A stretch of 35,079 nucleotides of DNA from the IMG/VR virus record IMGVR_UViG_3300033553_000123, positions 1-35,079 of that record; one strand, given 5' to 3'. The notes under the pieces are model-generated. The model made no database searches. It was given only the letters and a program-made list of their open reading frames with translations, and was not told the DNA's origin. Positions 27 through 17,261 of the stretch are shown piece by piece. A program made the position numbers and the translations under genes. The stretch is from a virus. Numbering within the stretch: the stretch's first letter is position 1; each line of letters begins with the position of its first letter.

Positions 27-209
27 TTACTGTCTCCATGCTGTTGTGTCTCCGTGGTATTTTTTATCTCTCCCCCACAAAAATCCGCCACTCCACTGCC
101 TGTAGGCGGCGCGATGGTCGCCATCGTGCCCGTACTTGCGTATGCACGGGTATGTGTACGCACCACCGTACACATGCTCTGTGCCACACAGGACCACATG
201 CTCATTCAT
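27..209 (-). CDS. CCHH microprotein, array copy 1
   Basis: This 60-aa protein has candidate ligands C8, C22, H28 and H32, with the longest Cys-Cys spacing of the family (13 residues). The core reads YPCIRKYGHDGDH, followed by a Trp-rich tail (GGFLWG) typical of copies 1-4. The start at 209 overlaps the stop of copy 2 by ATGA. A second ATG four bases on (205) opens another frame without the motif and is rejected. It ends with TAA at 27-29. Function is unknown. Confidence 0.8.
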   Translation of the reverse strand: MNEHVVLCGTEHVYGGAYTYPCIRKYGHDGDHRAAYRQWSGGFLWGRDKKYHGDTTAWRQ

Positions 210-379
210 AGCTTGAAATCCTTCTGCCAGAAGCCTTCATGGTCCCATAAAAAGTAGGACTCCGAGACAAGATAACTACTCAGGTGGTCGCCGCCGTGGC
301 TCTGCCTGCGTAGGCACCTGTACTGGTAGCTCATCCACGGCCTAGCACAAAGCACCTCACGCACCACCTTGTCACTCAT
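206..379 (-). CDS. CCHH microprotein, array copy 2
   Basis: This 57-aa protein has C11, C22, H28 and H32, with core YRCLRRQSHGGDH and a C-terminal SYFLWDHEGFW patch. The frame stays open further upstream, but the ATG at 379 puts the first Cys at the family position and overlaps copy 3 by 8 bp. That is the only junction in the array with this overlap; most are 4 bp. Function is unknown. Confidence 0.8.
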   Translation of the reverse strand: MSDKVVREVLCARPWMSYQYRCLRRQSHGGDHLSSYLVSESYFLWDHEGFWQKDFKL

Positions 380-548
380 CGCGAATATCCGGCCAGTGAC
401 TGTCGCCAGCCCACATAATCGGGTACTTGGACATTTTGTAGAAGGCCATGTGGTTGCCTCTGTGGTCTGGCCTGCGCGCGCACGGATACCGAGGGTCGCG
501 CTCCCACATCTTGGTGCATAGAATTTCACTCCCTCGCCTGTTACTCAT
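372..548 (-). CDS. CCHH microprotein, array copy 3
   Basis: This 58-aa protein has C11, C23, H29 and H33 (core YPCARRPDHRGNH) and a tail with two Trp residues (IMWAGDSHW). The ATG at 548 is preferred to one at 569 because it forms an ATGA overlap with the stop of copy 4. It resembles copy 4 closely around the core (Y-P-C, R-[RK]-P-D-H, then HMAFY), so these two are probably a recent duplicate pair. Confidence 0.8.
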   Translation of the reverse strand: MSNRRGSEILCTKMWERDPRYPCARRPDHRGNHMAFYKMSKYPIMWAGDSHWPDIRDE

Positions 549-739
549 GGTCCGAAGGCCTTCGACCAATAATTATAATTGTCCTTATCCTCCGACCAAT
601 AATCGTCGCCAGTCCACCAGAGCGGGTGGTCGGACGTCTGATAGAATGCCATGTGGTCGCCTCCATGGTCTGGTTTGCGCATGCACGGATACAAATGGTC
701 GCTCATCCATCGGTTGCGACACAACAACTTCCTGCTCAT
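545..739 (-). CDS. CCHH microprotein, array copy 4
   Basis: This 64-aa protein has C7, C19, H25 and H29 (core YPCMRKPDHGGDHMAFY). The tail contains WWTGDDYW followed by a Tyr/Lys/Asp-rich extension absent from most copies. The start at 739 (MSRKLLC) makes an ATGA overlap with copy 5. An in-frame ATG at 751 would lengthen the overlap and is less likely. Confidence 0.82.
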   Translation of the reverse strand: MSRKLLCRNRWMSDHLYPCMRKPDHGGDHMAFYQTSDHPLWWTGDDYWSEDKDNYNYWSKAFGP

Positions 740-930
740 GGGCTTCTCCATCCGTCTTCCGGGGGCCATGACAGTATCGAGTGTACCATGGAATGGTACC
801 ACACAAGCGCTGTGTCCAAGCTTACCGAGAATGGCTGCACATGCTTTCCGATATGGCCGCCCCTGAGCACGCATCCGTATTCGACTGACCGGACGTCCCA
901 AACCTTCGTACACTTTATGCTTTTGTTCAT
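736..930 (-). CDS. CCHH microprotein, array copy 5
   Basis: This 64-aa protein has C7, C20, H26 and H30 (core YGCVLRGGHIGKH). Copies 5-8 share a WPP motif near the C-terminus (here SWPPEDGW), which separates them from copies 1-4. The start at 930 overlaps the stop of copy 6 by ATGA. Confidence 0.82.
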   Translation of the reverse strand: MNKSIKCTKVWDVRSVEYGCVLRGGHIGKHVQPFSVSLDTALVWYHSMVHSILSWPPEDGWRSP

Positions 931-1106
931 ATTCCCCTCGGTGGCCAGCTACGATTTCCCTCGATAAGGCCCCCCACCCAAAAAAACGCGCTGTCGGGGC
1001 GTCCGACGAGCCGGGACAAGTGAGCCCCGCCGTGGTCCTTCCTGAGCTTGCAAATGTATCTAGAATCTTGCTTCCAACAAACCGTACACAAAATGTTCTT
1101 GTTCAT
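927..1106 (-). CDS. CCHH microprotein, array copy 6
   Basis: This 59-aa protein has C7, C19, H25 and H29, plus an extra Cys at position 10 that gives a CxxC pair. The core is YICKLRKDHGGAH and the tail ends in SWPPRGI. The ATG at 1106 (MNKNILC) is chosen over 1127 because it forms the ATGA overlap with copy 7. Confidence 0.82.
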   Translation of the reverse strand: MNKNILCTVCWKQDSRYICKLRKDHGGAHLSRLVGRPDSAFFWVGGLIEGNRSWPPRGI

Positions 1107-1297
1107 CCTCGTGCTTTCGGCGGCCATGGAATGTCTTGCTTAGGCCTGCGCATGCCGGGGCCTCTCGTCCAAGCAAACCCGAGGCTTCTGTATGTAATGT
1201 ACAATGACAGGTGGTCCCCGGCGTGGCCTTCCCTAAGTTGGCAATGATATTTCGGCTCAGCCGCCCAGAGGTCTGTGCATAGAATGTTTCTGCTCAT
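1103..1297 (-). CDS. CCHH microprotein, array copy 7
   Basis: This 64-aa protein has C7, C19, H25 and H29 (core YHCQLREGHAGDH) and a C-terminal PWPPKARG. The start at 1297 (MSRNILC) gives an ATGA overlap with copy 8; the in-frame ATG at 1309 is the alternative. Its N-terminus matches that of copy 4 (MSR-x-[IL]-LC). Confidence 0.82.
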   Translation of the reverse strand: MSRNILCTDLWAAEPKYHCQLREGHAGDHLSLYITYRSLGFAWTRGPGMRRPKQDIPWPPKARG

Positions 1298-1488
1298 ATT
1301 CTTTGCCACCCCGACCTTTTTGGGGGCCAGTAGATGCTATGATGCCTCTGGTCGCCACCCCAAAAGAACGCTTCGTCACTGTATGCCATGAGCCGAGTGA
1401 CGTGCATTCCTGTATGCCCACCCTTGAGCATACAAGCGTAGTAAACCACATCACCGTAGAGTTGGGTACACTTTAGTGTTTTGCTCAT
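1294..1488 (-). CDS. CCHH microprotein, array copy 8
   Basis: This 64-aa protein has C7, C19, H25 and H29 (core YACMLKGGHTGMH), an aromatic FFWGGD segment and a YWPPKRSGW tail. The ATGA overlap at 1485-1488 with copy 9 fixes the start. It most resembles copy 5 in the core (GGH-x-G-x-H) and in having K before the first Cys. Confidence 0.82.
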   Translation of the reverse strand: MSKTLKCTQLYGDVVYYACMLKGGHTGMHVTRLMAYSDEAFFWGGDQRHHSIYWPPKRSGWQRI

Positions 1489-1667
1489 ACTCCCGTCCCT
1501 CTCGTGCTCGTGGTGAGGATACCCCAGTCATCCTTGAGCCATTGACGAAGGATAAGCCTCCCATCGAGGGTACTTGACACCATCGAAAGGATATGCCAAC
1601 CAGTGTGACCTTCTTTTGACTGGCAACAGTAATCCCCGACATACGTTTCACCACATAGTATTTTCAT
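1485..1667 (-). CDS. CCHH microprotein, array copy 9
   Basis: This 60-aa protein has C5, C15, H21 and H25, with an additional Cys at 14 (core YCCQSKEGHTGWH). The frame extends upstream to 1826, but that extension overlaps copy 10 completely and carries no motif. The ATG at 1667 (MKILC) forms an ATGA overlap with the stop of copy 10. The WPP tail of copies 5-8 is absent. Confidence 0.8.
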   Translation of the reverse strand: MKILCGETYVGDYCCQSKEGHTGWHILSMVSSTLDGRLILRQWLKDDWGILTTSTRGTGV

Positions 1668-1816
1668 GGTATCCTCTGTATGCCAAGGCTCTCTTTTATG
1701 CCGTTGACCTTTATCCATCGGGAGTAAAAGCTCCTGTTCGCCCGCAGGTGCGCCCCCTGATGACCTTTCTTCATCTGGCACCGAACATGTCTCCTGAAGG
1801 GGGAGTTGCAAATCAT
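1664..1816 (-). CDS. CCHH microprotein, array copy 10 (50 aa, shortest)
   Basis: Reading the minus strand from the ATG at 1816 gives a 50-aa protein beginning MICNSPF. It has C3, C13, H19 and H23 (core VRCQMKKGHQGAH) and ends at a TGA at 1664-1666. Both ends form ATGA overlaps with copies 9 and 11, so it fits the array register exactly although it is short enough to be missed by a 60-codon cutoff. Confidence 0.8.
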   Translation of the reverse strand: MICNSPFRRHVRCQMKKGHQGAHLRANRSFYSRWIKVNGIKESLGIQRIP

Positions 1817-2001
1817 GGCGTAACATTTACTATGTCAAAGTTGACGGCGTATGGGACCCCCCGCGAGGGGCGTTCGTAGTTCCATACAAGTACAGATAAT
1901 GGAATGTCTAGAGGCTTCCTCGCCCAATGAGATGTGTGCCGATGGGGATGCCCGCGCTTCATCAGGCACGTATGGGTGTCAGTCCGCACCGGGCACATCA
2001 T
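1813..2001 (-). CDS. CCHH microprotein, array copy 11 (divergent)
   Basis: This 62-aa protein has C3, C12, H18 and H22, the shortest Cys-Cys spacing in the array (8 residues). The usual H-x-G-x-H is altered to HPHRH, with a further His three residues on, so this copy lacks the conserved Gly. The start at 2001 overlaps the stop of copy 12 by ATGA. Confidence 0.75.
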   Translation of the reverse strand: MMCPVRTDTHTCLMKRGHPHRHTSHWARKPLDIPLSVLVWNYERPSRGVPYAVNFDIVNVTP

Positions 2002-2162
2002 CGCTCAAAGAATCGGGTTGCGCGGAACACTAGGTCTTCAACCCCTTCACCCCATGAAGAATACATTCGACTGCCGTCGAACATGTGAAAATGCTCGCCA
2101 ATGTGCCCACTTTTCTTTTGGCAGGCCGACAGCTTCTTGTTGGCCCGCTTACAACACAACAT
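1998..2162 (-). CDS. CCHH microprotein, array copy 12 (first of array in transcription order)
   Basis: This 54-aa protein has C3 (and C4), C14, H20 and H24 (core SACQKKSGHIGEH). The start at 2162 (MLCC) puts the first Cys near the terminus, as in copies 10 and 11, and lies 1 bp after the upstream stop. An ATG-equivalent start at 2192 is possible but would overlap the upstream gene by 29 bp. Confidence 0.72.
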   Translation of the reverse strand: MLCCKRANKKLSACQKKSGHIGEHFHMFDGSRMYSSWGEGVEDLVFRATRFFER

Positions 2163-2163
2163 G

Positions 2164-2646
2164 TTACGTCCATTCACTAACGGGGCCTGCACTGGAATCG
2201 GTGCGCAATACAGGCAGGTCTTCGCTTGCTCCTACCTCCATAAGCCCCAACCCCTCCCTTAGGACGGGGGGAATCTTCATGAGCTTGAACATGTCATACA
2301 TTTGCTCATATGAAAGTGGCTGCGTAAACAGCAAGTATGGGTTAGACCACATTCTGAACTGGTACTTACCCTCAGGGATAAAGCCTCCGCAGTGGCATGT
2401 TGCCCTCCGCGTAGCGGCCCCCTCAATGAGCGGCGTTCTTCTCTTGTAAACTACCAATGTGAACCACGGGTCAAATTCATCGGCGTCAATCCAAGTCTTG
2501 AAAATATCCCTCGTGGTGCCCTTGTTGAAGTTGCAGCCCGCGCCATTAGTCGTTTGTGGCCAGTCTGACCGACACAGGGGAACCCCACTTTGCTTGACCG
2601 CCATGTAGATTTTCTTCAGGGCGTGGACGGTGCTCACCCAGACCAC
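2164..2646 (-). CDS. Hypothetical protein
   Basis: A 160-aa protein that I do not recognise. It contains a short Cys/His run (CHCGG) near residue 94 and several aromatic segments, but no transmembrane stretch or signal peptide. It is not a member of the CCHH array that follows it. The GTG at 2646 overlaps the upstream stop by 13 bp. An ATG at 2604 with a GAAG-type ribosome site is a realistic alternative, giving a protein 14 residues shorter. Confidence 0.65.
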   Translation of the reverse strand: MVWVSTVHALKKIYMAVKQSGVPLCRSDWPQTTNGAGCNFNKGTTRDIFKTWIDADEFDPWFTLVVYKRRTPLIEGAATRRATCHCGGFIPEGKYQFRMWSNPYLLFTQPLSYEQMYDMFKLMKIPPVLREGLGLMEVGASEDLPVLRTDSSAGPVSEWT

Positions 2647-3074
2647 CGACCGTGCATGAATTCACCACGGTCGTGAACCTTCAAAAGCTCTTTGGCCTGC
2701 GCGCCATAGCCCATTGCGTGAATCATGCCAAGCAGGGCGTCGTAAACCATGTGGTTGCTTCTGGCAATGTCTGACACGGTGGCAATCTGCTGCTGCTCTG
2801 GCCACCACTGCTTTGCGTGGAGTAGGTTGAGTTTGGTGATAGGTCTCCAATCTCCGTCCTCGCACCAAATTTTGGGGTGGATGAGCCCACCGAGGGCGTC
2901 AAAGATAAACCCGTCCACCCACACACGCTCGTAGCCGTCAACCATCACGAGAGTTACTTCAAACTCATGGTCACCAAATACATCAGTGAGATAGTCCATG
3001 AGATTGCCAATGTCTTCCTTGTGCAGTTCTGTACTCTCTTCGACAAACTGGTTCTTGGCTTCCTGAAGTCCCAT
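2634..3074 (-). CDS. Hypothetical protein
   Basis: A 146-aa soluble, acidic protein with no family that I recognise. The start is well supported: GGAGGAAT lies immediately before the ATG at 3074, and the A of the start is shared with the TAA of the upstream gene (TAATG). The N-terminal half is rich in charged residues (LHKEDIGNLMDYLTDVFGDHEF) in short pieces, and the middle contains a Trp/Gln-rich stretch (QWWPEQQQ). It belongs to the long left operon. Confidence 0.72.
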   Translation of the reverse strand: MGLQEAKNQFVEESTELHKEDIGNLMDYLTDVFGDHEFEVTLVMVDGYERVWVDGFIFDALGGLIHPKIWCEDGDWRPITKLNLLHAKQWWPEQQQIATVSDIARSNHMVYDALLGMIHAMGYGAQAKELLKVHDRGEFMHGRWSG

Positions 3075-3322
3075 TATTCCTCCAATAGTTTTTCCGGGGT
3101 GTCGCTGATATCCGCAATGACATACACTCTGTCAATATAGCACAGTAGCACTCCGTCAATGTCTACAGACCACTCTGCACCTTCACCAGTGTACCAGCCG
3201 AGGGTGTGTTCCGTGGAAAGGTCGGGCTGCCAGCCATAAATGGCCTTGAACTCCCTGCGCACCTTTCGCAGCCGGGGGTCATCGCCCCCGGCCTCAACGG
3301 CCTGTCGAAATTTGTTGCTCAT
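3074..3322 (-). CDS. Hypothetical protein
   Basis: An 82-aa protein starting MSNKFRQ. The ATG at 3322 overlaps the stop of the membrane-protein gene upstream by ATGA, which decides this start over the longer frame from 3373. The sequence is mixed alpha/beta in appearance with a hydrophobic C-terminal half (VLLCYIDRVYVIADI). No domain recognised. Confidence 0.7.
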   Translation of the reverse strand: MSNKFRQAVEAGGDDPRLRKVRREFKAIYGWQPDLSTEHTLGWYTGEGAEWSVDIDGVLLCYIDRVYVIADISDTPEKLLEE

Positions 3323-3498
3323 GATAGGCCCGTCACGATTCTGTAGATGACATACCCAATGGCGGCATACCACACAAGGCGCACAGCAAGGACTGCCAGA
3401 AGGGAGAGGGTGTTCCCCCAGCCAAAGTCACCTGCAATTGCCCACGCACTCCAAAGCACGGGGGCAATCACAATAAATATGGCGAGGACAAGAATCAT
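3319..3498 (-). CDS. Small two-helix membrane protein
   Basis: Translation from the ATG at 3498 gives 59 residues beginning MILVLAIFIVIAPV. Two hydrophobic segments, about residues 2-22 and 31-57, are separated by a short polar turn (GDFGWGNT). Both ends make ATGA overlaps with neighbouring genes, which argues strongly that it is real. It probably sits in the host membrane. Whether it is a holin-like protein, an exclusion factor or something else cannot be told from sequence; its place in an accessory operon with no lysin nearby argues mildly against a holin. Confidence 0.75.
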   Translation of the reverse strand: MILVLAIFIVIAPVLWSAWAIAGDFGWGNTLSLLAVLAVRLVWYAAIGYVIYRIVTGLS

Positions 3499-3962
3499 GA
3501 CAGGCCCAGCGCGGCCCTACGCTGCTTACGCAACTTCTCGTGGAGGCCAAGCTCATACTCAGCCAAAAGGCCAACAGCCTCGACCTCGCCCATGGCAGCC
3601 AGAGAGTCTGTCAGTTGCTCAATGGTGCCGAGGGCGGTTGACAATCCATCCCCCCCGAAACTGACAGACTGCTTTGCCTCTAGATTGTAGACTTCGTCGC
3701 CAGAGTCCACGCCCGCGAAAAACGGCTTGCAGGATTCGCATGCGTCGTCCATCTTTTCCCTGTCCACCATGTAACGAAACACCGCGATGGTGGCGTCATG
3801 CTCCACTGCCGGGTCGTCCATCATGTGGACCATCCAGTGGTCATCCATGATGCCACAGCCCGAAACCATGACGTCGTCTTCGTTCTTCTTCTTGTTTGTG
3901 CAGCCATCGGACCATTCGCCAACGCCGCTGCGTACCTCTACCATTCTCATCTTGAATTCCAT
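3495..3962 (-). CDS. Hypothetical acidic protein
   Basis: A 155-aa protein rich in Asp/Glu/Met in the middle (MDDHWMVHMMDD), with one CxxC pair (CESC, near residue 78) and a basic C-terminus (KLRKQRR). No family recognised. The start is uncertain: ATG codons at 3962, 3950 and 3944 are all in frame, and the one at 3950 has the best-placed ribosome site (TGGAA). The stop overlaps the membrane-protein start by ATGA. Confidence 0.68.
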   Translation of the reverse strand: MEFKMRMVEVRSGVGEWSDGCTNKKKNEDDVMVSGCGIMDDHWMVHMMDDPAVEHDATIAVFRYMVDREKMDDACESCKPFFAGVDSGDEVYNLEAKQSVSFGGDGLSTALGTIEQLTDSLAAMGEVEAVGLLAEYELGLHEKLRKQRRAALGLS

Positions 3963-3972
3963 TCGTTGTTGG

Positions 3973-4377
3973 TTAGAGAGTTTGGTTCACACCTAGTGCG
4001 TATTCACATACTACCACAAGCGCGTCTTCGTTGTCAAGGGCCTTGACCCAATCCAAGATTTCATCAAGTGTGGACAGTGTACGTGTGTTTACTTCATGCG
4101 TGACACTCCCAGTGAACGTGTCTCTTTCGACAGTACGCACGATTTCACACTCAAAGAGAGGATTTAGTGAGGGGTCCAAATATGTAGTACAAAACTCACA
4201 GTCCCCGCTCTGCTTCACAGTCTGCCTGTACAGGATAATAGAACGCTGGTCATCAGATGACCTGTCTCCGTGAGCCCAAACGGTAAATACAGAGGGGATG
4301 GGCCAGTCACAAAGACAGCTCTTTTCTATGAAATCCGCAGTGGGAAAGACACTGTCCCTCCCAAGGTGTACAAGCAT
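3973..4377 (-). CDS. Hypothetical protein
   Basis: A 134-aa protein starting MLVHLGRDS. The ATG at 4377 is preferred because a CAGGG ribosome site lies about 6 bp upstream and the start falls 1 bp after the upstream stop. The frame extends upstream but overlaps another gene there. Two Cys pairs are visible (CLC near residue 22 and CEFC near 59). The C-terminal part (LDEILDWVKALDNEDALVVV) looks helical. Function unknown. Confidence 0.68.
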   Translation of the reverse strand: MLVHLGRDSVFPTADFIEKSCLCDWPIPSVFTVWAHGDRSSDDQRSIILYRQTVKQSGDCEFCTTYLDPSLNPLFECEIVRTVERDTFTGSVTHEVNTRTLSTLDEILDWVKALDNEDALVVVCEYALGVNQTL

Positions 4378-4378
4378 G

Positions 4379-4816
4379 CTAGCCCTGCGGCCCATCTGGT
4401 ACCCCCAGTGTTGCGGCGAAGACCTTTTGGATGATGGACTCCGCATGCTCTGAGGGGTTGCGTTCATAGTATGCCATCGCCTTATCCAGAACGGCCTCTT
4501 CCTTTCTGGCTGTGAACACGGCTGAGTCGAGAGAGGCTTCGTCAATAATCATGAGGTGGAAGAAGTATCCTTCGAACTCACAACTAGGCTTGTGGGGGTA
4601 TGTCTTGTATGTCCCCCCAGCCAAACGGTTGCCCTCCTCATCCCGCTTCCAAAAGGCAGCATCAGAGACAGGAGTCACCGAACGGCTGCATCGGCATGTG
4701 ACCTCATAATCATAGGTCCCACCGCCAATCCTCGCGCTGGTGCCACCTGAGCCAGTTGAGAAATCCATAGCAGATTCTCCACCTTCTAGTGCTGATTCGG
4801 TTGACGAGCTTGTCAT
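4379..4816 (-). CDS. Hypothetical protein
   Basis: A 145-aa protein. The ATG at 4816 is preceded by AAGGAACAAC, a good Shine-Dalgarno sequence. The first 35 residues are low-complexity Ser/Gly/Thr and lie inside the 3' end of the upstream gene, so the ordered part probably begins at about residue 36 (TYDYEVTCRC). The C-terminal half is helical and charged. No family recognised. Confidence 0.7.
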   Translation of the reverse strand: MTSSSTESALEGGESAMDFSTGSGGTSARIGGGTYDYEVTCRCSRSVTPVSDAAFWKRDEEGNRLAGGTYKTYPHKPSCEFEGYFFHLMIIDEASLDSAVFTARKEEAVLDKAMAYYERNPSEHAESIIQKVFAATLGVPDGPQG

Positions 4817-4961
4817 GTTGTTCCTTACTCTTGGTCCATTTGAGCAGCGAACACTGCCCTATTTTTCTGAGGGTGGTAGAACCTTCAATAGACTCCACCA
4901 CCCACGGAGGAACTGGGGTATACACATGGTCATCCCACTCACTTTCCCAGAGCGCGGTCAT
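4710..4961 (-). CDS. Hypothetical protein with long 3' overlap
   Basis: An 83-aa protein starting MTALWESEWDD at an ATG with AAGGGA upstream. It overlaps the RNA ligase gene by 23 bp. Its last third (after about residue 50) lies in another frame over the start of the following gene and becomes unusually Trp/Arg-rich, which suggests only the N-terminal part is under strong selection. A frameshift joining it to the next gene is an alternative reading. Confidence 0.55.
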   Translation of the reverse strand: MTALWESEWDDHVYTPVPPWVVESIEGSTTLRKIGQCSLLKWTKSKEQHDKLVNRISTRRWRICYGFLNWLRWHQREDWRWDL

Positions 4962-5997
4962 AGACAATCCCTTGACAAATCTCTAGGGCCTTTTCGGCAT
5001 TGCTGTCTGCCAGCGCAAACACAGCGCCAGAGTAGTCTGTAGCCAGAGCGTGGTGTGCCAATTGCTTCCTGTTCATGCCCTGTTCAGCACAGAAATCAAA
5101 CAGCTCGCTCGCTTGAATGTACAGGTTTTCCACGTCCCTTTGGAACTGACGAACCAGAGGGTCTGTCCATGCACGTTCGTATTCTGGCAGCTTGGCTGCA
5201 AGGTCGTCATAGGACCCCTCAACAACTGAGTCCAGTACGTTCTTGGCAGTCAGGTTGAACAGCACCCTGTGCAAGTCCTTGTACGTCCCAAACTTGACCT
5301 TGGCGCGGATGCCGCCCATCCACTCTAGCACATAGCCCTCTGCGTTGTCAACCTCTGTGAACGGGTCCTTTTCCACGTACTGTGCGACGTCAGGCCACAG
5401 GAATTCAAGGTGGTCCCCGAACCGCTCACCGTGCAGCGCCGCGTCCAGCAGTACCAGCTTGCGCTCGTCGCCGTAATTCACCACAATTCTATTCTCGGGG
5501 TGAATAAGTTCGAACACATACTGATAATTTGGAAGAAGCTTAGTGCCCCTGTCATGGTATTCAGAAAGAAGCTCTGTCGCCCACTGTGCCTGCTCAGAAT
5601 TGAACGACCCAGAGGACGCGACCTGCCATGAGCCCTTGTGCATGAATACGGAAATCATGCTGCCGTCATACTTGACAAGCACGTCCGGTTCTTCTTCTTC
5701 AGGCAAAACGCCTGCGCCTTCCAATTCCTCGTAGTTGAAGAACTTGTCGAATACGAAGTTCAACTGAGAGCCCGCCCGAGAGTACACGACCCCACGGGCA
5801 GACAGCATTGCGGGAGTCCACCAGCGCTCCCACATGGCCTCCCTGCCGTACTTGTACAGGTGCATGCCGTTCAACTGCTGCAAACGAACCCGCCCCTGCT
5901 CGACAAGGGCGTCAAGGTCTGATTTCATAGGAATGTAGCACCAGTCCTCACGGGACAGGTGTACAATTCCACAGTCTGGACACGCTAGTCGTTCCAT
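4939..5997 (-). CDS. RNA ligase, T4 Rnl1-like
   Basis: A 352-aa ATP-dependent RNA ligase of the T4 RNA ligase 1 type. These enzymes join RNA 3'-OH and 5'-phosphate ends through a lysine-AMP intermediate and repair host-cleaved tRNA. Visible elements are a leader (RGVVYS, residues 69-74) and a FDKFFNYEE segment like the one just before the active site in Rnl1. The nucleotidyl motif I is KYDGS with K109 as the candidate nucleophile. A motif IV-like EGYVLE with E220 and a motif V-like KVKFGTYKDLHR with K233/K235 follow. The N-terminus adds CPDC at 6-9 and C20, a possible metal site. The start at 5997 has AGGGAG upstream and overlaps the upstream gene by 13 bp. Ligase assignment is confident; the biological target is inference. 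Confidence 0.9.
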   Translation of the reverse strand: MERLACPDCGIVHLSREDWCYIPMKSDLDALVEQGRVRLQQLNGMHLYKYGREAMWERWWTPAMLSARGVVYSRAGSQLNFVFDKFFNYEELEGAGVLPEEEEPDVLVKYDGSMISVFMHKGSWQVASSGSFNSEQAQWATELLSEYHDRGTKLLPNYQYVFELIHPENRIVVNYGDERKLVLLDAALHGERFGDHLEFLWPDVAQYVEKDPFTEVDNAEGYVLEWMGGIRAKVKFGTYKDLHRVLFNLTAKNVLDSVVEGSYDDLAAKLPEYERAWTDPLVRQFQRDVENLYIQASELFDFCAEQGMNRKQLAHHALATDYSGAVFALADSNAEKALEICQGIVYDRALGK

Positions 5998-7268
5998 CCA
6001 ATCAACTCCCTGTGTGCCTCGATGGCATCCTCAGGCCCCCACCATGCCTTCGCACGTGGGTGGACAAAGACGTCCTTGGCCCCTCTCACCAGTGTACCAT
6101 GCCAGTCCACTGCGTCAAACTCTGCCCCCCACTCAAGTTTCATCCACGGGTCCATGGAGTCTTCAATCTTGTCAGTCCACGCAGCATAGAACAGTTCCTG
6201 CATATGTGGGGTCAAAATGCTGCCGTCGTCGCGCTGTTCGCTAGCCACCGTCTTGTAGTAGGGTGGGCTATTGGGCCTTATTGGCCGCCACATTGGATTA
6301 TCTTTGGGGGGGTCGATAAGCTCACGCACCCGGTCCATCTTGGACTGTATCGCCTCAAGCTTTCGAGACATAGTTTCCATTGAAATCCCGTCGTCATAGA
6401 AGATTGGCTCAATGGAACCGAGAAGGGCTGAGGACTCAAGCTGGCTTGGGGTACCGTATGTTTGGAAAATTCTAAAAAACGAATTGGCAACAAGCTCGCT
6501 GCTGGGGCGGGACTCTAGTTCAGAGGCTCTGTCCATGAGGCGAAGCGGCGCGTCAGTTCTAAAGTCTGCCAGCGTGACAACCCTCGGGGCGGCGAGGAGG
6601 AATTCCGTCATAATGTCGAATAGCTGCCCAAGCAGCTCTTCTTCCCGGCCTGCTGAATTTCGCTTGCCAAAAATCGCATGGACGGCCTCTTCAAGGGTCG
6701 GCTTCATTATGAGCCCATTTGGCCTGCGGAACGCAGGAAGAACTCCGAATTCAAAGTTTGCAGAAGTGTCCCCTCCCCCGCGACCATTAAAAACCCTCTC
6801 AAGTTGAGACAGGGACGGGAATAGCACGTCCTTCACAGGGCCACCAAGCCTTTCCTCAATCTGAGGCAGCATGAACCTTGCGCCGCGCTCATCGAAGATT
6901 GTATTGTACAGTCTGGGGGAAAGACTCATGAAGCCAGTCTTCGTCGGAATGGAGCAGCGCCACCTTCCTACGCTATCGTTCCAGAAGAACAGCGTAAAGT
7001 CTTTTCTGACCTTCCCTGCGTACCCGCCACGGGAGCTTGTCCCAATCCAGACATGAAACTTGTCTGGGGATTCTTCGTAGAACTTTCCAGTGACGAACCA
7101 CCTCGGCCTGAAATCAACTATTCTGGATATGTTGGGGTCGTCGGTATTGCGGACGACCATCCCCGGAGAAGTGTTGTATGGTACAATCGGCTTCCCGCCA
7201 TTGTCCCACGTGTACGAAGAAATAGGAAATTCTGAATAGTGATACAGCAACTTACGTTTGCCAGACAT
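5985..7268 (-). CDS. Hypothetical protein upstream of RNA ligase
   Basis: A 427-aa soluble protein that I cannot assign. The N-terminus (residues 1-120) is rich in aromatic and beta-prone segments; the middle (about 150-330) is largely helical. A string near the C-terminus (FDAVDWHGTLV) recalls HAD motif I, but only about 35 residues follow, too few for that fold. The tight coupling to the RNA ligase (13-bp overlap) suggests the two act in one process, possibly RNA end processing, but nothing in the sequence proves this. The start ATG at 7268 has a weak GGCGG site. Confidence 0.75.
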   Translation of the reverse strand: MSGKRKLLYHYSEFPISSYTWDNGGKPIVPYNTSPGMVVRNTDDPNISRIVDFRPRWFVTGKFYEESPDKFHVWIGTSSRGGYAGKVRKDFTLFFWNDSVGRWRCSIPTKTGFMSLSPRLYNTIFDERGARFMLPQIEERLGGPVKDVLFPSLSQLERVFNGRGGGDTSANFEFGVLPAFRRPNGLIMKPTLEEAVHAIFGKRNSAGREEELLGQLFDIMTEFLLAAPRVVTLADFRTDAPLRLMDRASELESRPSSELVANSFFRIFQTYGTPSQLESSALLGSIEPIFYDDGISMETMSRKLEAIQSKMDRVRELIDPPKDNPMWRPIRPNSPPYYKTVASEQRDDGSILTPHMQELFYAAWTDKIEDSMDPWMKLEWGAEFDAVDWHGTLVRGAKDVFVHPRAKAWWGPEDAIEAHRELIGWND

Positions 7269-7296
7269 TTGACCGCCAATTTTGGTCGAGGGGAAC

Positions 7297-7797
7297 TTAT
7301 TCCTTGAACTTCACAAGCCTGTTGTCTTCGTCAATGAGCATCGGAGTCCCATTCACGTTCGCCCCGATAACACTACCATTGTTCACAATGGACTCTAGCG
7401 TCATCAGGGGCTCTTCAGTTGATTCCGACGCCACGGTAGCAAGCAGTAGGTCTCCATACACTCCCATGGTCCAGTCAGGGAAGAAGCACCCTTTCATGAC
7501 ATTCACATCACGCTCGGAGTAATATGTCCAGAATGACAGGTTCCTGATGATGCGGACCCACTTGCGACAAACCGGGCCGACCACGTAGAGTAGCCCATAG
7601 GTGTAGTCGCTGTCAACCTTGGCCACACTGGTGCCTACGGGTATGGTGTGGGGCAGGGCCAACCTCTCTAGGCCAAGTTCTTTGGCATATCGAGACTGGT
7701 GGTACCCCTGTGTGAATGCCATCTTCATGATGTTCGTGGCCCCTGCGGCGCTGGTCGCCCCAGATGCCACAGATTCTCCCTGCTTTTGCAAGTCCAT
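7297..7797 (-). CDS. Hypothetical protein, first gene of the left operon
   Basis: A 166-aa protein starting MDLQKQGES. The start at 7797 has a near-perfect ribosome site (AAGGAGG, 5 bp upstream). The promoter at 7820-7848 would put the transcription start near 7813, which excludes the longer start at 7860 and probably 7821. The N-terminal 25 residues are Ala/Gly/Ser-rich; the rest is beta-prone with hydrophobic segments but no clear transmembrane helix. No family recognised. As the first gene behind the promoter it is probably expressed strongly and early. Confidence 0.78.
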   Translation of the reverse strand: MDLQKQGESVASGATSAAGATNIMKMAFTQGYHQSRYAKELGLERLALPHTIPVGTSVAKVDSDYTYGLLYVVGPVCRKWVRIIRNLSFWTYYSERDVNVMKGCFFPDWTMGVYGDLLLATVASESTEEPLMTLESIVNNGSVIGANVNGTPMLIDEDNRLVKFKE

Positions 7798-7819
7798 ACG
7801 AGCCTCCTTGGTCCTGACC

Positions 7820-7848
7820 ATCCTACCACCACCGGACTTCCAAGTCAA
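7820..7848 (-). promoter_or_regulatory. Promoter of the left operon
   Basis: On the minus strand TTGACT (7843-7848) and TAGGAT (7820-7825) are separated by exactly 17 bp. A start of transcription near 7813 would give a leader of about 15 nt that carries the AAGGAGG of the first gene. No other convincing minus-strand promoter was seen between here and the left end, so this unit could be about 7.8 kb long. The -10 box is identical to that of the promoter at 32425. Confidence 0.8.
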
Positions 7849-8401
7849 GCGAAGGCACAAGTGTACTTAAGCCGCGTAACGGGCACCAAGTGCTCTGTTC
7901 TCCCCAGCCGGGACCCTGCACCCCGCTGTGCTTCACAGATTGCTAACCCCCCCTACTGCCCAAGTGAAAGGGCAGTTGAAAGGCTTGGGTGTTTCACTTG
8001 ACGGGGCAGTGCTTTTCTTGGCCTCTGGGTCCATGGCAGAGCCGTGCTTGCCGATGGGAGACTGGGTTCGTGGCGGCCAGATGCAACGCTCTGGCCGTGT
8101 TGGTTCGTACTAGACTGTGCCGATGGCGGAAAGGTGAACAACAGGTCAGAAACAAGGACTTGCTGGTGTGAGCCAGCCCACACCTCGAAAAGCGCCCCGC
8201 AAGAGGCATAGGTGTGTTCCATCCATCGACCCGCTGCGTTTGCACGGCGTCCGTGCGCGGTCATGCAACTCTACCGCTGCGCTACATTGCGCTCAGGCTC
8301 AGAACTCTCCGTGGGTCACGGGCTCGGGTATTGTGTACCCTGCGTTCGCAGCGCTTTCAGGCTGCGCACCAGTTTGCGACTGGCTCGTACTTTCTGAACA
8401 T
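7849..8401 (-). ncRNA. Candidate structured RNA or long leader
   Basis: This part of the 815-bp gene-free stretch holds many inverted repeats downstream of a strong minus-strand promoter. They include CCAGT/ACTGG, CGCAGC/GCTGCG and GGGTA/TACCC within 8320-8390; 8179-8185 with 8210-8216 (CACACCT/AGGTGTG); and GGCCAGA/TCTGGCC around 8074-8095. Inside the CACACCT stem a second stem pairs fully only as minus-strand RNA, through a G-U pair. A D-arm-like string occurs near 8272-8287, but no complete tRNA folds. No open frame has a ribosome site or recognisable protein. It may be a free RNA or the leader of the left operon. Confidence 0.4.
7955..8010 (-). other. Competing inverted repeats (possible switch)
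   Basis: ACTGCCC occurs twice on the minus strand (8010-8004 and 7976-7970), and one GGGCAGT (7961-7955) can pair with either. The near pairing gives a 7-bp hairpin with an 8-nt loop. The far pairing adds AAGTGAAA (7999-7992) against TTTCACTT (7969-7962), giving a longer two-part stem. The two structures exclude each other. Confidence 0.45.
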
Positions 8402-8407
8402 GTTGGC

Positions 8408-8436
8408 ATCATACACGTCGGCATGGTCGCTGTCAA
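8408..8436 (-). promoter_or_regulatory. Minus-strand sigma-70-type promoter
   Basis: Consensus TTGACA (8431-8436) and TATGAT (8408-8413) lie 17 bp apart on the minus strand, placing a start near 8401. It is one of the two best promoter matches in the window and reads into the structured gene-free stretch. Confidence 0.75.
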
Positions 8437-8612: not shown

Positions 8613-10475
8613 TTGACTTATCTTTCACCCTATTCCAGCTATATCCATAAGAGCAAGTACGCGCGCTGGATTGAGTCAGAAGGGCGAAGAGAGACTTGGG
8701 ACGAGACAGTAGACAGGTTCGTTGACTACATGGAGTATCGCTTCCCCGGCGTTGCAATGGGTGACATTCGTACAGCCGTGCGCAACATGGACGTGATGCC
8801 TTCGATGCGAATGATGTTTGCAGCAGGCCCCGCACATGAGCGCGAAGAAATCTCTGGTTACAACTGTGCGACTGTCGCAGTGTCTAGTCTTCGGGCGTTT
8901 GACGAGGCCGTATACATTCTGATGAATGGCACAGGCCTAGGCTTCAGTGTGGAGCAAGAATACGTTGACCAGTTGCCGACCGTGCCGTCTGCGTTCCGTT
9001 CGGGGGATGAAATTGTAGTCGGGGACTCAAAGGAAGGATGGTCACGAGCATACCGCAAGTTGATTGAAGAGCTTTTTGCTGGGCGAATCCCCACGTGGGA
9101 CCTCGCACAGTTGCGCCCAGCCGGTGCCCCGCTCAAGACCTTTGGCGGAACAAGCTCAGGGCCAGAACCGCTCGACAAGTTGTTTACCGAGACTGTCGGC
9201 ATGGTGTACGGGTCTCGTGGCCGTCAACTGACTGCCATGGAGTGTCATGAACTTATGTGCATGATTGGCTCTATCATCGTAGCCGGTGGGGTTCGACGCT
9301 CAGCGCTCATCAGCCTGTCTGACTTGGACAACGAAGAGATTCGTGATGCAAAGCATGGGTCATTTTGGAATGACAAGCCACACTTGGCCCTAGCGAACAA
9401 CTCTGTTTCCTACAAGAGCAAGCCCACCCGTCAGCAGTTTGACGCTGAATTCAACGCCCTGATTGCCTCTGGTTCGGGAGAGCGCGGCATCTTCTCACGG
9501 TATGGCGCTCAGTCACGAGACAATGGACTTGACCGAGACATGACAAAGGTGGTATCCACAAACCCGTGTGGCGAAATCATGCTCAGGAACCAGCAGTTCT
9601 GCAATCTTTCTGAGGTGATTGTGAAGGAAGGAGACACCGAGGCTGATATCCTCCACAAGTTGGCCATCGCCTCCAAGCTTGGCACACTTCAGTCTTCGTT
9701 CACCAACTTCAATGAGATTCGTGACGAGTGGCGTGCTAACACAGAAGAAGAGCGTCTTTTGGGCGTTTCCCTTACTGGTATCATGGGCAATCACCTTACC
9801 GCAGCCCCCTCGGTAGAATTTCTTCAGGGGATGAAGAAGGTAGTTCACGATGCAAACCGCTACTGGGCGTCAGAACTTGGCATCCCAATGTCAAAGGCGA
9901 TGACCACAGTGAAGCCGTCAGGCACAGTCAGCCAGTTGGCAGGCGTGTCCAGTGGTATCCACCCATGGCACAGTAAGTTTTATCGCAGGAACGTTCGTAG
10001 TTCCAAGAATGAAGCCCTGACTGACGTTCTCTTGAATCAGGGTGTTCCCCACGAGATTGACGCATATGACCCAAACAACTACGTGTTCTCATTCGCCGTG
10101 GCTGCGCCAGAGGGTGCAATCCTACGTGAGGATATTTCTGCAATTGAACAGTTGGAGCACTGGCTGCTGTACTCCACACACTACACCGACCACAATCCCT
10201 CTGTGACAATCAATGTTGAGAATGACGAGTGGGAGCAGGTTCGTGAGTTCGTATGGGAGCACTTCGATATGATGGTTGGCGTATCCTTCCTCCCCAGCGA
10301 AAATGTGTATGTGCAGGCTCCATTCCAAGAGGTTGATGAAGACATGTATCAGATGTTGGTTGACCAATCACCCAACAGCCTGTATTGGGAGGCCCTGCAT
10401 GAGGCTGAAGACCACACATCAGGCGCTCAGGAACTTGCATGCGTTGCGTCTGAGGGTGGGTTTTGCGAAATCTGA
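8613..10475 (+). CDS. nrdJ: Ribonucleoside-triphosphate reductase, adenosylcobalamin-dependent (class II)
   Basis: A 620-aa monomeric class II reductase that converts ribonucleoside triphosphates to deoxynucleotides using coenzyme B12. By alignment from memory with Lactobacillus leichmannii RTPR, C85 (GYNCATV) and C330 (QFCNLS) are the redox pair. NPCGEI at 317-322 supplies N317, the thiyl cysteine C319 and E321. LMNGTGLGFSVE at 103-114, GGVRRS at 225-230 and a PSGTVSQLAG loop are also conserved. The C-terminus ends in a Cys pair (CVASEGGFC) that could shuttle electrons. It is about 120 aa shorter than the 739-aa Lactobacillus enzyme. The start is TTG at 8613 with GGAGG six bases upstream. 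It serves phage DNA synthesis and depends on host cobalamin. Confidence 0.93.
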   Translation: MTYLSPYSSYIHKSKYARWIESEGRRETWDETVDRFVDYMEYRFPGVAMGDIRTAVRNMDVMPSMRMMFAAGPAHEREEISGYNCATVAVSSLRAFDEAVYILMNGTGLGFSVEQEYVDQLPTVPSAFRSGDEIVVGDSKEGWSRAYRKLIEELFAGRIPTWDLAQLRPAGAPLKTFGGTSSGPEPLDKLFTETVGMVYGSRGRQLTAMECHELMCMIGSIIVAGGVRRSALISLSDLDNEEIRDAKHGSFWNDKPHLALANNSVSYKSKPTRQQFDAEFNALIASGSGERGIFSRYGAQSRDNGLDRDMTKVVSTNPCGEIMLRNQQFCNLSEVIVKEGDTEADILHKLAIASKLGTLQSSFTNFNEIRDEWRANTEEERLLGVSLTGIMGNHLTAAPSVEFLQGMKKVVHDANRYWASELGIPMSKAMTTVKPSGTVSQLAGVSSGIHPWHSKFYRRNVRSSKNEALTDVLLNQGVPHEIDAYDPNNYVFSFAVAAPEGAILREDISAIEQLEHWLLYSTHYTDHNPSVTINVENDEWEQVREFVWEHFDMMVGVSFLPSENVYVQAPFQEVDEDMYQMLVDQSPNSLYWEALHEAEDHTSGAQELACVASEGGFCEI

Positions 10476-10518: not shown

Positions 10519-10582
10519 GGTCAGAAACAAATGAATCATGTGTAGAGCCCCCGGTGCGCAACACACCGGGGGCTCTACTTTG
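10519..10582 (+). ncRNA. Predicted short RNA of about 65 nt
   Basis: The span lies between the promoter at 10484 and the terminator at 10542. It would consist of a short unstructured 5' part and the terminator hairpin. A four-codon frame (ATG AAT CAT GTG TAG, 10531-10545) ends inside the stem, so translation there could in principle affect termination. Whether this is a free small RNA, an attenuated leader of the next operon or a decoy is unknown. Confidence 0.45.
10542..10582 (+). terminator. Intrinsic terminator
   Basis: A perfect 15-bp stem (10542-10556 with 10564-10578) surrounds a 7-nt loop and is followed by TTTGTTG. It closes the reductase unit and the short RNA. The next promoter's -35 box (TTGCTT, 10583-10588) follows the stem after 4 bp. 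Confidence 0.85.
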
Positions 10583-10879: not shown

Positions 10880-12973
10880 ATGGCCACTCCGATTGAATTG
10901 GTCTCTGGCTTGGAGCTTTACAGTCGCTCCGAGCCCTCCTGCGTGCTGTTCAGTTCGCTGTCAAACCTCTCTATCGTCAGTGACATTGCCTCCGTCGAGT
11001 CAGAAGTTGGAAGTGATGGGCTGCCGTCAGGCAGGGTTGTTGTCCATGACAGTTCAGCCACTTTTGGAGCGGGGACGGGATTCTCTAACAAGACCTCTCC
11101 ATACTCCTTCCCACTGAACACACTACCAGATTTCACGGTGGTCTTGGAGGTGGTTTCAACAGGTCAGTCGGCGGAAACGCTTCTTCGGTGGGGTGAGGTG
11201 GAGCTTGTTCTGACTGAGGGGACTATGGATACACTCAACAGACTGGGTCTGTCAATACCATCAACTCGCCCCGCATCAAGAATTGTAATCTTGCGCGCCA
11301 ATTCAGGTGGATTCGGACTGTCAGCAACCCTTGACGAAGGGGTGTTTGCAACTGGGACAAATCACTTCGCCTCGGGGTCGATTCAGACTGAAGTAGATGA
11401 CCCAATCACTTCCTCGTGGGCCATCGGATTTGACGGTAGGCAACTTTTTGAGGGGCCAGAATCGTGGACGCGGGGGTCAGCAGACTGGCTTCAGCTATCA
11501 AGAACGTCCAATGGGGTGCTGCTTGAGCAGAATATCCTTGACCCAGTCTCAGACTGGATAGACACATCGGCAGTATCAGACGTTGCCATCTCTAACTTGC
11601 CCCCAATCGGGGTAGGTGAAACTGGGAGCGTAATATTCTCCCCTGAATCTGGTTCGGAGCAGGTTGACGAGATTGTAACCTCTCCCTCTGTAGAGGTGAA
11701 CCCCGGAGACAGTTACAGAATGTCAACCCTTGCTCAAAGTCTGGACACGGTGTCCCCGTCAAGCACCGTTTCAATAATGGTGGTGTATCGCAGGGCCGAT
11801 GGCTCCATTGTGAGTAGTCAGAACGTTGACACTTCCGCTACCGGAGGTGCCCAGCCCGTGTACTTTGAAAACTGGTTCATGCTCACGGGAACCTCTGTCG
11901 CGCCCGCAGAGGCATATACCGCAGAGATGGTTATTTCTGCCGACTACAACGCGACAACGGAGGCGTGGTCTGCCACTGGGATGAAGTTTGCAAATGAGAC
12001 ATTGGTAAACGCATCTTCGACTGAGGTCATCGGGAACTATGGAGACCCAATCCTTGTTGACGGTGCTGAGTTCCTTCAAGTGGATGCAGTATTCAGAAGT
12101 GGTATCCCCCAGAAGTCAACTGGCGGTTATGCCAGTTCAAACTTTGAAATGCGGTACTACAATTCTGTCGGTACACTTTTGTCTGCCCAGTCTGTCGGAT
12201 TCCATGGCGGTGCTTCTGTCCCGAATGAAGTATTTAATGACTCTGCCCTTTTGAACGTTCCGACTGGCTCGGTTACGGCAAAGTTGTTCGTAGAGCTTTC
12301 TGGTTCTCAGACCGGCGGGTGGCTGTTTGAAGACCTTTCGGTATACAGGGCAGACCAGATTGGGGCCGCTGGGGTGAGCTTTTACACGTCTGGCCAGCAG
12401 CCAGTTCCAATTTCTGCGGGGGAGGAAGCCTCCTTCAGTGCCTTTGTAAGGTCAGATGTTGCGTTCACAATGAAGCTTGAATGGTTGGACGGCGTCGGCG
12501 CAACCTTGTCAACATCAACGGGGGCCACGCTCATTCAGGAGTTGGCAGACTCTCCGTGGGGATTGTATGAGTTCATTTCTGTCGCTCCCGCCTCCGCAGC
12601 CTCATTCATCCCTTCTGTAGAAGTGACTGGCCCAGAGCCCTTCGGAGAAACAAGGGTGGCGCTTCCATCGGTACGCTCAAGGTCTGGCGGGCCATTTGAC
12701 CCAGTGAACTTTGAACTGTTGGACCAGTTCAGTTCTAATTCAGTGCCGTTCATCACGCAAGAGGTGGACACAACGCTGGTACTCGGGGACGAAAATTTCG
12801 GAGGGGCGCAAGTAAAGGGGCTTGCAGTATTCAACGAGTACTTCGATGATGCAAAGATTCTAGAGGTTGTTGACGCGGCCATGGGAAGGGAGCGCCAATC
12901 TTATGCCATGGGAAGCCTCACTCTCACCCCTTCAGCAACATCAATTACCAACGTCGTGTGGTCGAACGCTTAG
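10880..12973 (+). CDS. Putative virion protein with lectin-like and carbohydrate-binding-like modules
   Basis: A 697-aa beta-rich, Ser/Thr/Gly/Val-rich protein. Residues about 1-200 read like a concanavalin A/LamG-type jelly roll (SGLELYSR, TLPDFTVVLEVVST, WAIGFDGRQLF). Three later blocks (about 270-380, 390-490 and 505-590) each begin with a stretch like DSYRMSTLAQS, FLQVDAVFRSG or EEASFSAFVRS and look like repeated carbohydrate-binding beta-sandwiches. No catalytic residues are evident. It follows the PGBD gene by 3 bp and precedes the portal, an unusual place for an adhesion protein. It may be a head decoration or a tail component. The module assignment is inference from sequence texture. 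Confidence 0.65.
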   Translation: MATPIELVSGLELYSRSEPSCVLFSSLSNLSIVSDIASVESEVGSDGLPSGRVVVHDSSATFGAGTGFSNKTSPYSFPLNTLPDFTVVLEVVSTGQSAETLLRWGEVELVLTEGTMDTLNRLGLSIPSTRPASRIVILRANSGGFGLSATLDEGVFATGTNHFASGSIQTEVDDPITSSWAIGFDGRQLFEGPESWTRGSADWLQLSRTSNGVLLEQNILDPVSDWIDTSAVSDVAISNLPPIGVGETGSVIFSPESGSEQVDEIVTSPSVEVNPGDSYRMSTLAQSLDTVSPSSTVSIMVVYRRADGSIVSSQNVDTSATGGAQPVYFENWFMLTGTSVAPAEAYTAEMVISADYNATTEAWSATGMKFANETLVNASSTEVIGNYGDPILVDGAEFLQVDAVFRSGIPQKSTGGYASSNFEMRYYNSVGTLLSAQSVGFHGGASVPNEVFNDSALLNVPTGSVTAKLFVELSGSQTGGWLFEDLSVYRADQIGAAGVSFYTSGQQPVPISAGEEASFSAFVRSDVAFTMKLEWLDGVGATLSTSTGATLIQELADSPWGLYEFISVAPASAASFIPSVEVTGPEPFGETRVALPSVRSRSGGPFDPVNFELLDQFSSNSVPFITQEVDTTLVLGDENFGGAQVKGLAVFNEYFDDAKILEVVDAAMGRERQSYAMGSLTLTPSATSITNVVWSNA

Positions 12974-16232: not shown

Positions 16233-17261
16233 ATGTCTAACGACCTACTGCAAAAGATTGTCGATACCGAACTAGTCGGTAGCGGCGGTGGCGGTATCCT
16301 GAACCCGGAACAGGCCAGCCGTTTCATTGACTACACATGGGACGCAACTGTTCTTGGCAATTATGCCCAGCGCCGCCCAATGGCGAACCCGCAGGTTGAC
16401 GTGGATTCTTTCCGTGTCGGTCAGCGTATCACTCGACTAGCCACTGAAGGACTGGACGACGGCCAGAACGCCGTTCCGACCTTCGGCAAGGTAACACTTC
16501 GCACCGAAAAGCTGCGCCTTGACTGGGAAATCACCACGGAGTCTCTTGAAGACAACCTTGCCGGTGACGACCTTCAGGACCAGATTTCACGCGCAATGGC
16601 CACGACTCTAGGCAATGACCTTGAGGACGTAGCCATCAACGGTGACACCGCCGTTAACACTGGCTCGCCGGATGACGGCTTGATTATGGCCTATGACGGC
16701 TTCCACAAGCTTGCGCTTAACGGTGGCCACGTCATTTCCAACAACGGTGGCTACTTGACCGAGGAAACTTTCTCTCGGGCCTACAAGCAGCTTCCTCGTC
16801 AGTACAAGTCACGCCGTGACGCCATGAAGTTCTTCACAGCGTCCAGCCTCGTACACGACTTCCGCATGCACCTTGCCAACATGGGCGTTGACGCCCTGAA
16901 CGGCACATGGATTCAGCAGGCTGGTGTCGCACCGATGGTCGGAGAGCAGGGTTCAACAGGACTTCGTCCCTTTGGGATTGAACTGCTGGACATTCCGCTC
17001 TACGAAGACACATTTGCCGGGACTTACCTCCTTGCCGATGCTGTTACCGATGCCGACCCAACGCAAGAGTACCACGGTTACGTGGACCTCACGGTTCCTG
17101 AGAACATGGTATGGGGAGTTCACCGCGAAATCACCATGCACAGCCGCTTCGAACAGCGCAAGGACGCATTTGAGTTCACGGTCTTCACCCGTCAGGGTGT
17201 TGTAATCACGAACGCTGATGCTTACGTCACAGTGACCGACGTTCGGAACAAGGCAGTCTAA
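16233..17261 (+). CDS. Major capsid protein (HK97 fold)
   Basis: A 342-aa major capsid protein. The N-terminal arm (residues 1-60) leads into a strand pair (SFRVGQRITRLATEGLDDGQ) with the TFGKVTLRTEKLRLDWEIT segment expected for the E-loop and P-domain. The spine helix follows (DDLQDQISRAMATTLGNDLEDVAINGD). The A-domain ends in a beta segment (VWGVHREITMHSRFEQRKDAFEFTVFTRQG) that is typical of the fold. There is no long cleavable delta domain, in line with a separate scaffold. AAGGAGG lies 8 bp before the start. A terminator follows the stop, so the gene is probably transcribed with the protease/scaffold gene as one unit. Confidence 0.93.
   Translation: MSNDLLQKIVDTELVGSGGGGILNPEQASRFIDYTWDATVLGNYAQRRPMANPQVDVDSFRVGQRITRLATEGLDDGQNAVPTFGKVTLRTEKLRLDWEITTESLEDNLAGDDLQDQISRAMATTLGNDLEDVAINGDTAVNTGSPDDGLIMAYDGFHKLALNGGHVISNNGGYLTEETFSRAYKQLPRQYKSRRDAMKFFTASSLVHDFRMHLANMGVDALNGTWIQQAGVAPMVGEQGSTGLRPFGIELLDIPLYEDTFAGTYLLADAVTDADPTQEYHGYVDLTVPENMVWGVHREITMHSRFEQRKDAFEFTVFTRQGVVITNADAYVTVTDVRNKAV

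Follow-up and report, generated by a model that had tools for sequence, protein, structure and literature searches.

The extreme left end of the IMG/VR virus record IMGVR_UViG_3300033553_000123 carries a tandem array of at least twelve small genes, all of which encode one Cys/His domain. The source is a 35,079-base linear record, and the window analyzed here is the entire record. On its minus strand, between positions 27 and 2162, lie 12 consecutive open reading frames (ORFs) of 50–64 amino acids (aa), all with ATG starts, in which 10 of the 11 junctions are 4-nucleotide (nt) ATGA overlaps of stop and start codons and the remaining one is an overlap of 8 nt. Each product contains C-x(8-13)-C-x5-H-x3-H and a downstream Trp, and the array is a tandem, overlapping and intact set of one domain family. 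Twelve is a minimum, because the array runs up to the contig edge, from which the end of gene 1 is separated by 26 nt.

The shared motif and paralogy of the twelve genes

An earlier description of this DNA, made from the letters without database searches and referred to here as the sequence-only reading, had claimed twelve overlapping genes of 50–64 codons, each with C-x(8-13)-C-x5-H-x3-H, and had taken them for paralogues. The gene layout was confirmed, and the motif with its downstream Trp was found in 12 of 12 products. All 12 aligned proteins agree at C, C, H, H and W, and 11 of them have the Gly of H-x-G-x-H. Dinucleotide shuffles of positions 1–2200 contained on average 0.09 such motifs and never more than one, which excludes a run of motifs by chance. 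The paralogy was also borne out. Leave-one-out hidden Markov models, searched against the 799 other ORFs of the window, recovered genes 1–10 and 12 with expect values (E) of at most 1e-5. Gene 11 was marginal in this analysis, yet its motif, spacing and both ATGA junctions are as in the other copies. A profile built only from foreign members, with no array member included, placed all 12 proteins in ranks 1–12, ahead of the 799 background ORFs; gene 11, with an E of 0.085, nevertheless stood above all background.

Summed over the array, the annotated frame had the best codon score of the six frames. In absolute terms the codon scores of the array are below those of the neighboring genes, as expected for proteins rich in Cys, His and Trp. 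Nine of the 12 proteins have a net positive charge of more than one unit, and those of genes 4 and 9 are net negative.

Relatives of the domain in other phages

Profile similarity places the array proteins in a Cys/His mini-domain that is widespread among actinobacteriophages and carries no name. As defined here, the mini-domain consists of a C-x(6-15)-C-x5-H-x-G-x-H core and a Trp that lies 6–28 residues past the last His. The array proteins have this core (with the Gly in 11 of 12), the Trp and similarity to the members found outside the array, and searches of Pfam, NCBIfam and the named PHROG families with them gave no match above cut-offs. Viral contigs were scanned with a DNA pattern for single copies, which yielded 40 in-frame open matches among those listed. 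Gly precedes the first His in 23 of these 40 listed matches but in only 6 of 50 out-of-frame controls, and Trp is found at the expected distance in 27 of the 40, compared to 6 of the 50 controls. As neither Gly nor Trp was part of the search pattern, the controls provide independent evidence for the family. The foreign members themselves were picked by motif, so that conservation of the motif among them is by construction.

The sequence-only reading had called for a search for homologues outside this genome and had held that proteins of this kind are common singly in actinobacterial phages. Homologues were found: in addition to the recovery of all 12 array proteins by the foreign-only profile, hhalign aligned the array profile with the foreign profile at an E of 8e-9 and a probability of 95.8. 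Searches by tblastn with the foreign members matched mostly Gordonia phages, with weak E-values. A combined profile detected three copies in one protein of phage Wizard, two copies in each of Walrus and GTE7, one in each of Gudmit, Schwartz33, LilSpotty and Zipp (the last weak), up to four in IMG/VR contigs, and none in Bxb1, phiC31, PHL114L00, BillNye, Tomas, LuckySocke, Thunderclap or Sham. Among 198 actinobacterial genomes scanned, five had one match each. The pattern scan, hhalign, tblastn and the combined-profile counts thus agree that the relatives are mostly single and mostly from actinophages. The array profile had no convincing match in 50 IMG/VR records with related (Stanwilliamsviridae-like) capsids, and a single-protein scan for relatives found none.

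The members from the Gordonia phages Walrus, Wizard, Gudmit and GTE7 and gp53 of Mycobacterium phage LilSpotty share with the array the sequence C-x(n)-C-x4-G-H-x-G-x-H and the downstream Trp, and the profile similarity holds in both directions. In contrast to the array, they occur at 0–4 copies per record and usually within larger proteins, not as stand-alone genes of 50–64 aa. The forms found in other phages include small proteins, added domains and fused repeats. The domain itself is already present in other genomes and is not new.

The array of twelve had also been regarded as unusual. This holds for its form, of which no other example was found, but not for the use of the domain in multiple copies. 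A pattern that demanded this architecture from two neighboring genes had four matches in the window and none in the viral contigs; the array-pattern scans require particular bases and spacings, and the absence of other arrays holds for those scans. A literature search, with subscription papers mostly outside its scope, returned no report of such an array. Looser two-copy scans identified fused repeats (L234, L235 and a Streptomyces flavofungini protein) and a loose cluster (L298), the remainder being mostly chance matches. Fused tandem repeats number three in gp73 of Gordonia phage Wizard, four in G074 of IMG/VR and three in Streptomyces flavofungini. L298 (IMGVR_UViG_3300046722_000274, positions 4845–7087, minus strand) is similar to the array in that adjacent genes carry the domain: four genes that touch one another contain about seven copies. 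Its domains, however, sit within or at the ends of larger, dissimilar proteins, unlike those of the stand-alone array genes. Clustering of the domain is not unique, but no larger run was found than the present one, with its twelve or more separate genes.

Two of the fused forms have further features. L235 (positions 397–2331, minus strand) is a 645-aa viral protein with a domain pair near each end and an unrelated middle part. The three-repeat ORF of S. flavofungini (L242, positions 5975–7018, minus strand) contains Trp-rich stretches between the repeats and could be a prophage or host protein.

Structure prediction and comparison with known zinc proteins

From its sequence, each array protein is predicted to be a zinc-stabilized module. 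For residues 1–50 of gene 8, AlphaFold2 with 41 sequences gave a best model with a predicted local distance difference test score (pLDDT) of 71, in which strands are formed by residues 29–32 and 40–43 and the second strand ends at the conserved Trp 43. In a search of predicted viral proteins, the top neighbor of this model was a protein of Gordonia phage Bakery (probability 0.99, E 0.15). The leading structural neighbors among viral proteins were mostly from actinophages, no row being significant by E-value, and this agrees with the sequence-based result for the family. Matches to PylRS structures look like chance look-alikes of C-x5-H-x3-H.

The CCCH fingers have a ligand spacing of C-x4-15-C-x5-C-x3-H, and those of the tristetraprolin type have the spacing C-x(n)-C-x5-X-x3-H in common with the array. 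Their third ligand is Cys, whereas that of the array is His in 12 of 12 proteins; there was no fold match, and no CCCH Pfam profile was found at E up to 1, so that membership in this family was rejected. A CCCH finger of ZGPAT stands at rank 9 of the Foldseek list for the gene 8 model, with a non-significant E of 9.7. The spacing of the array also differs from that of the classical C2H2 finger (C-x2-4-C-x12-H-x3-5-H), which was rejected as well. The Ogr/Delta and TraR/DksA proteins are small phage zinc proteins that act on host RNA polymerase, and P4 Delta consists of two fused Ogr-like units. They resemble the array proteins, for which zinc is predicted, in being small phage proteins, but they have four-Cys sites with other spacing and are not known to occur in arrays of twelve; with CCHH ligands and no such Pfam match, the array proteins were not assigned to either group. 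DUF5763 (PF19067) had no match among array genes 1–10, and 4 of 43 members of the wider alignment matched it weakly (best E 3e-4), the matches listed being far below the curated cut-off. Many tiny putative zinc proteins in one genome are also described in a study of Haloferax volcanii, which lists 43 putative zinc-finger micro-proteins of under 70 aa with two C(P)XCG motifs (PMC10716476). They are encoded by cellular archaeal genes, and their motif, two CPXCG, differs from that of the array.

Duplication history and selection

The array arose by local tandem expansion of a small Cys/His domain, which it contains at least 12 times. Traces of duplication persist in the DNA: a stretch of 119 nt is 74% identical between genes 3 and 4, and genes 5–8 repeat a start region of 32 nt. 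The pairwise identity among the twelve copies has a mean of only 26%, and copies resemble each other more the closer together they lie (Mantel r = -0.48, p = 2e-4), a correlation between position and similarity that fits the expectation from local tandem duplication.

The suggestion of the sequence-only reading that this expansion reflects diversifying selection was not supported by the substitutions. The closest pairs had non-synonymous and synonymous substitution rates (dN and dS) of 0.39 and 0.96 (genes 3–4), 0.58 and 1.61 (genes 6–7) and 0.63 and 1.77 (genes 5–8), which correspond to dN/dS ratios of about 0.35–0.4, and their proportion of non-synonymous differences (pN) was well below that of synonymous ones (pS). 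Among 12 pairs examined, pN exceeded pS only in genes 10–11, a poor alignment. The mean pN was lowest in the C-x5-H-x3-H core (0.35) and higher in the N-terminal (0.51) and C-terminal (0.62) parts, with pS saturated. These values indicate purifying selection on the scaffold and relaxed or changed constraint outside it. The saturation of most gene pairs ruled out a site-wise selection test, and the argument from diversifying selection is best set aside until related arrays come to light. None of the 12 copies is decayed, and the four ligands and the Trp are intact throughout, although dS is about 1 or above in the closest pairs. Each copy thus seems to have been kept, because unused copies would have degenerated at such divergence.

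Genomic context

The placement of the phage is based on its major capsid protein (Table 1), whose similarity makes the phage, by sequence, a distant relative of the Stanwilliamsviridae. Given that the Stanwilliamsviridae used for comparison are Streptomyces phages of about 120–134 kb, the window is probably a piece of a larger phage of an actinobacterial host, as we infer it. Portal protein, tail tape-measure protein, ribonucleotide reductase and RNA ligase were recognized in the window, for which no DNA-level similarity to known phages was found and an Rfam scan detected no RNA family. Within the limits of the contig, the array closes a leftward gene run at its 3′ end. A candidate promoter lies upstream of this run, in a region where the number of sigma-70-like sites is not above chance.

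The RNA ligase of the leftward run is about 30% identical to RNA ligases of Streptomyces phages, and no tRNA genes were found in the window. According to Pfam, the ribonucleotide reductase encoded at 8613–10475 (plus strand) has an insertion domain of the B12-dependent type (class II), and shortly past its gene lies a strong intrinsic-terminator-like hairpin (10542–10578, plus strand; 15 pairs, 11 of them GC). Between this gene and the portal region is an ORF of 697 aa (10880–12973, plus strand) without a Pfam match.

Table 1. Array genes and other features of the window. E, leave-one-out expect value; pI, isoelectric point.
Feature	Position	Strand	Length	E	Remarks
Array gene 1	27..209	-	60 aa	2e-9	C-x13-C-x5-H-x3-H
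Array gene 2	206..379	-	57 aa	1e-11	C-x10-C-x5-H-x3-H
Array gene 3	372..548	-	58 aa	2e-15	C-x11-C-x5-H-x3-H; 8-nt overlap with gene 2
Array gene 4	545..739	-	64 aa	9e-16
Array gene 5	736..930	-	64 aa	9e-13
Array gene 6	927..1106	-	59 aa	2e-15
Array gene 7	1103..1297	-	64 aa	5e-16
Array gene 8	1294..1488	-	64 aa	2e-15	residues 1-50 used for structure model
Array gene 9	1485..1667	-	60 aa	5e-6
Array gene 10	1664..1816	-	50 aa	9e-6	strongly basic, pI 11.6
Array gene 11	1813..2001	-	62 aa	0.11	most divergent; lacks Gly of H-x-G-x-H
Array gene 12	1998..2162	-	54 aa	2e-6	first in transcription order
Leftward gene run upstream of array	2164..7860	-			uncharacterized ORFs and T4 Rnl1-like RNA ligase
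T4 Rnl1-like RNA ligase	4939..5997	-			PF09511, Pfam E 2e-11; phrog_562, PHROG E 2e-49
Candidate sigma-70-like promoter	8408..8436	-			TTGACA-17-TATGAT, 11/12 consensus match; upstream of leftward run
Major capsid protein	16233..17261	+			46-50% identity to Stanwilliamsviridae capsids

Proposed function and alternatives

We tentatively propose, as a reading that may well prove wrong, that the array encodes a co-translated set of diverged, metal-stabilized binding modules, whose variable surfaces bind different or variant partners, likely host factors. The overlap of stop and start codons allows ribosomes to re-initiate at the ATGA sites and pass from one gene to the next, and all twelve proteins would be made together. 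Each would form one compact domain in which the C, C, H and H ligands bind a stabilizing metal ion, zinc being the likeliest, and a short beta-hairpin bears the conserved Trp. The ligand scaffold would remain constant while the loop between the two Cys and the C-terminal arm vary, and each copy would use its variable surface to contact a different or variant partner (most probably a host protein or nucleic acid) in the service of cell takeover or counter-defense. In other phages the domain is used singly, in serial fusions or as an appendage of other proteins, as would suit a binding module of general use. More doubtful is a reading of the array as a standing repertoire of small binding domains, a panel of inhibitors or adaptors in which each copy is kept for a different host target.

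Several observations weigh against this proposal. The step to host factors draws on genome position, size and analogy only. The structural model built from the twelve sequences alone was unusable (pLDDT 46), only one of the five gene 8 models reached the pLDDT of 71, with the others at 52–58, and a search of solved structures with the gene 8 model gave no significant match. Several array start sites have a weak Shine-Dalgarno-like sequence, and the output of the distal genes may therefore fall.

The nearest rival is a nucleic-acid-binding set, in which CCCH-like fingers with His for the third Cys would bind RNA or DNA and, for example, steer host or phage transcripts. Such a role is suggested by a ligand spacing equal to that of the CCCH fingers and by the fact that most copies are basic, neither point being a test of it; the RNA ligase in the same gene run and the low-ranking ZGPAT finger are consistent with it. 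We nevertheless consider it rather unlikely, given that there is no Pfam zinc-finger match above cut-off, that the third ligand is His in all copies, that genes 4 and 9 are net negative and that solved structures gave no match. The fused proteins with three or four repeats (Wizard gp73, G074 and S. flavofungini) point to another arrangement, in which the array would be their split form and the twelve chains would be subunits of one multivalent complex at a fixed ratio. Matched output would be favored by the ATGA coupling, but the wide divergence of the copies argues against a single assembly, which we regard as unlikely.

Two further explanations concern how the copies arose and diverged. Mostly neutral growth in copy number, driven by unequal recombination and with a function for only one or a few of the copies, would account for the likeness of neighboring copies and the persisting DNA repeats; it is distinctly unlikely in view of the absence of decayed copies despite a dS of about 1 or above and the retention of ligands and Trp in every copy. 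If instead a host defense recognized the copies, variation itself would be selected, as the highly divergent loop and C-terminal arm around a fixed core might suggest, but dN is lower than dS in the close pairs, which renders evasion improbable. It is very improbable that the set ties up zinc in the manner of metallothioneins: although many chains each offer four potential ligands, one site per approximately 60 residues falls far short of the site density of known metallothioneins, and neither the conserved Trp nor the predicted hairpin would be needed for a sink.

The twelve intact, diverged versions constitute a natural variant series that shows which residues of the domain are fixed and which are free, and they provide twelve independent baits with which its binding partners could be sought. 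Genome-wide overexpression screens have been carried out for mycobacteriophages (PMC11075535, PMC9339283, PMC13148394). If it is true that the copies hit different host targets, the array would represent a compact strategy in which one fold attacks many host functions.

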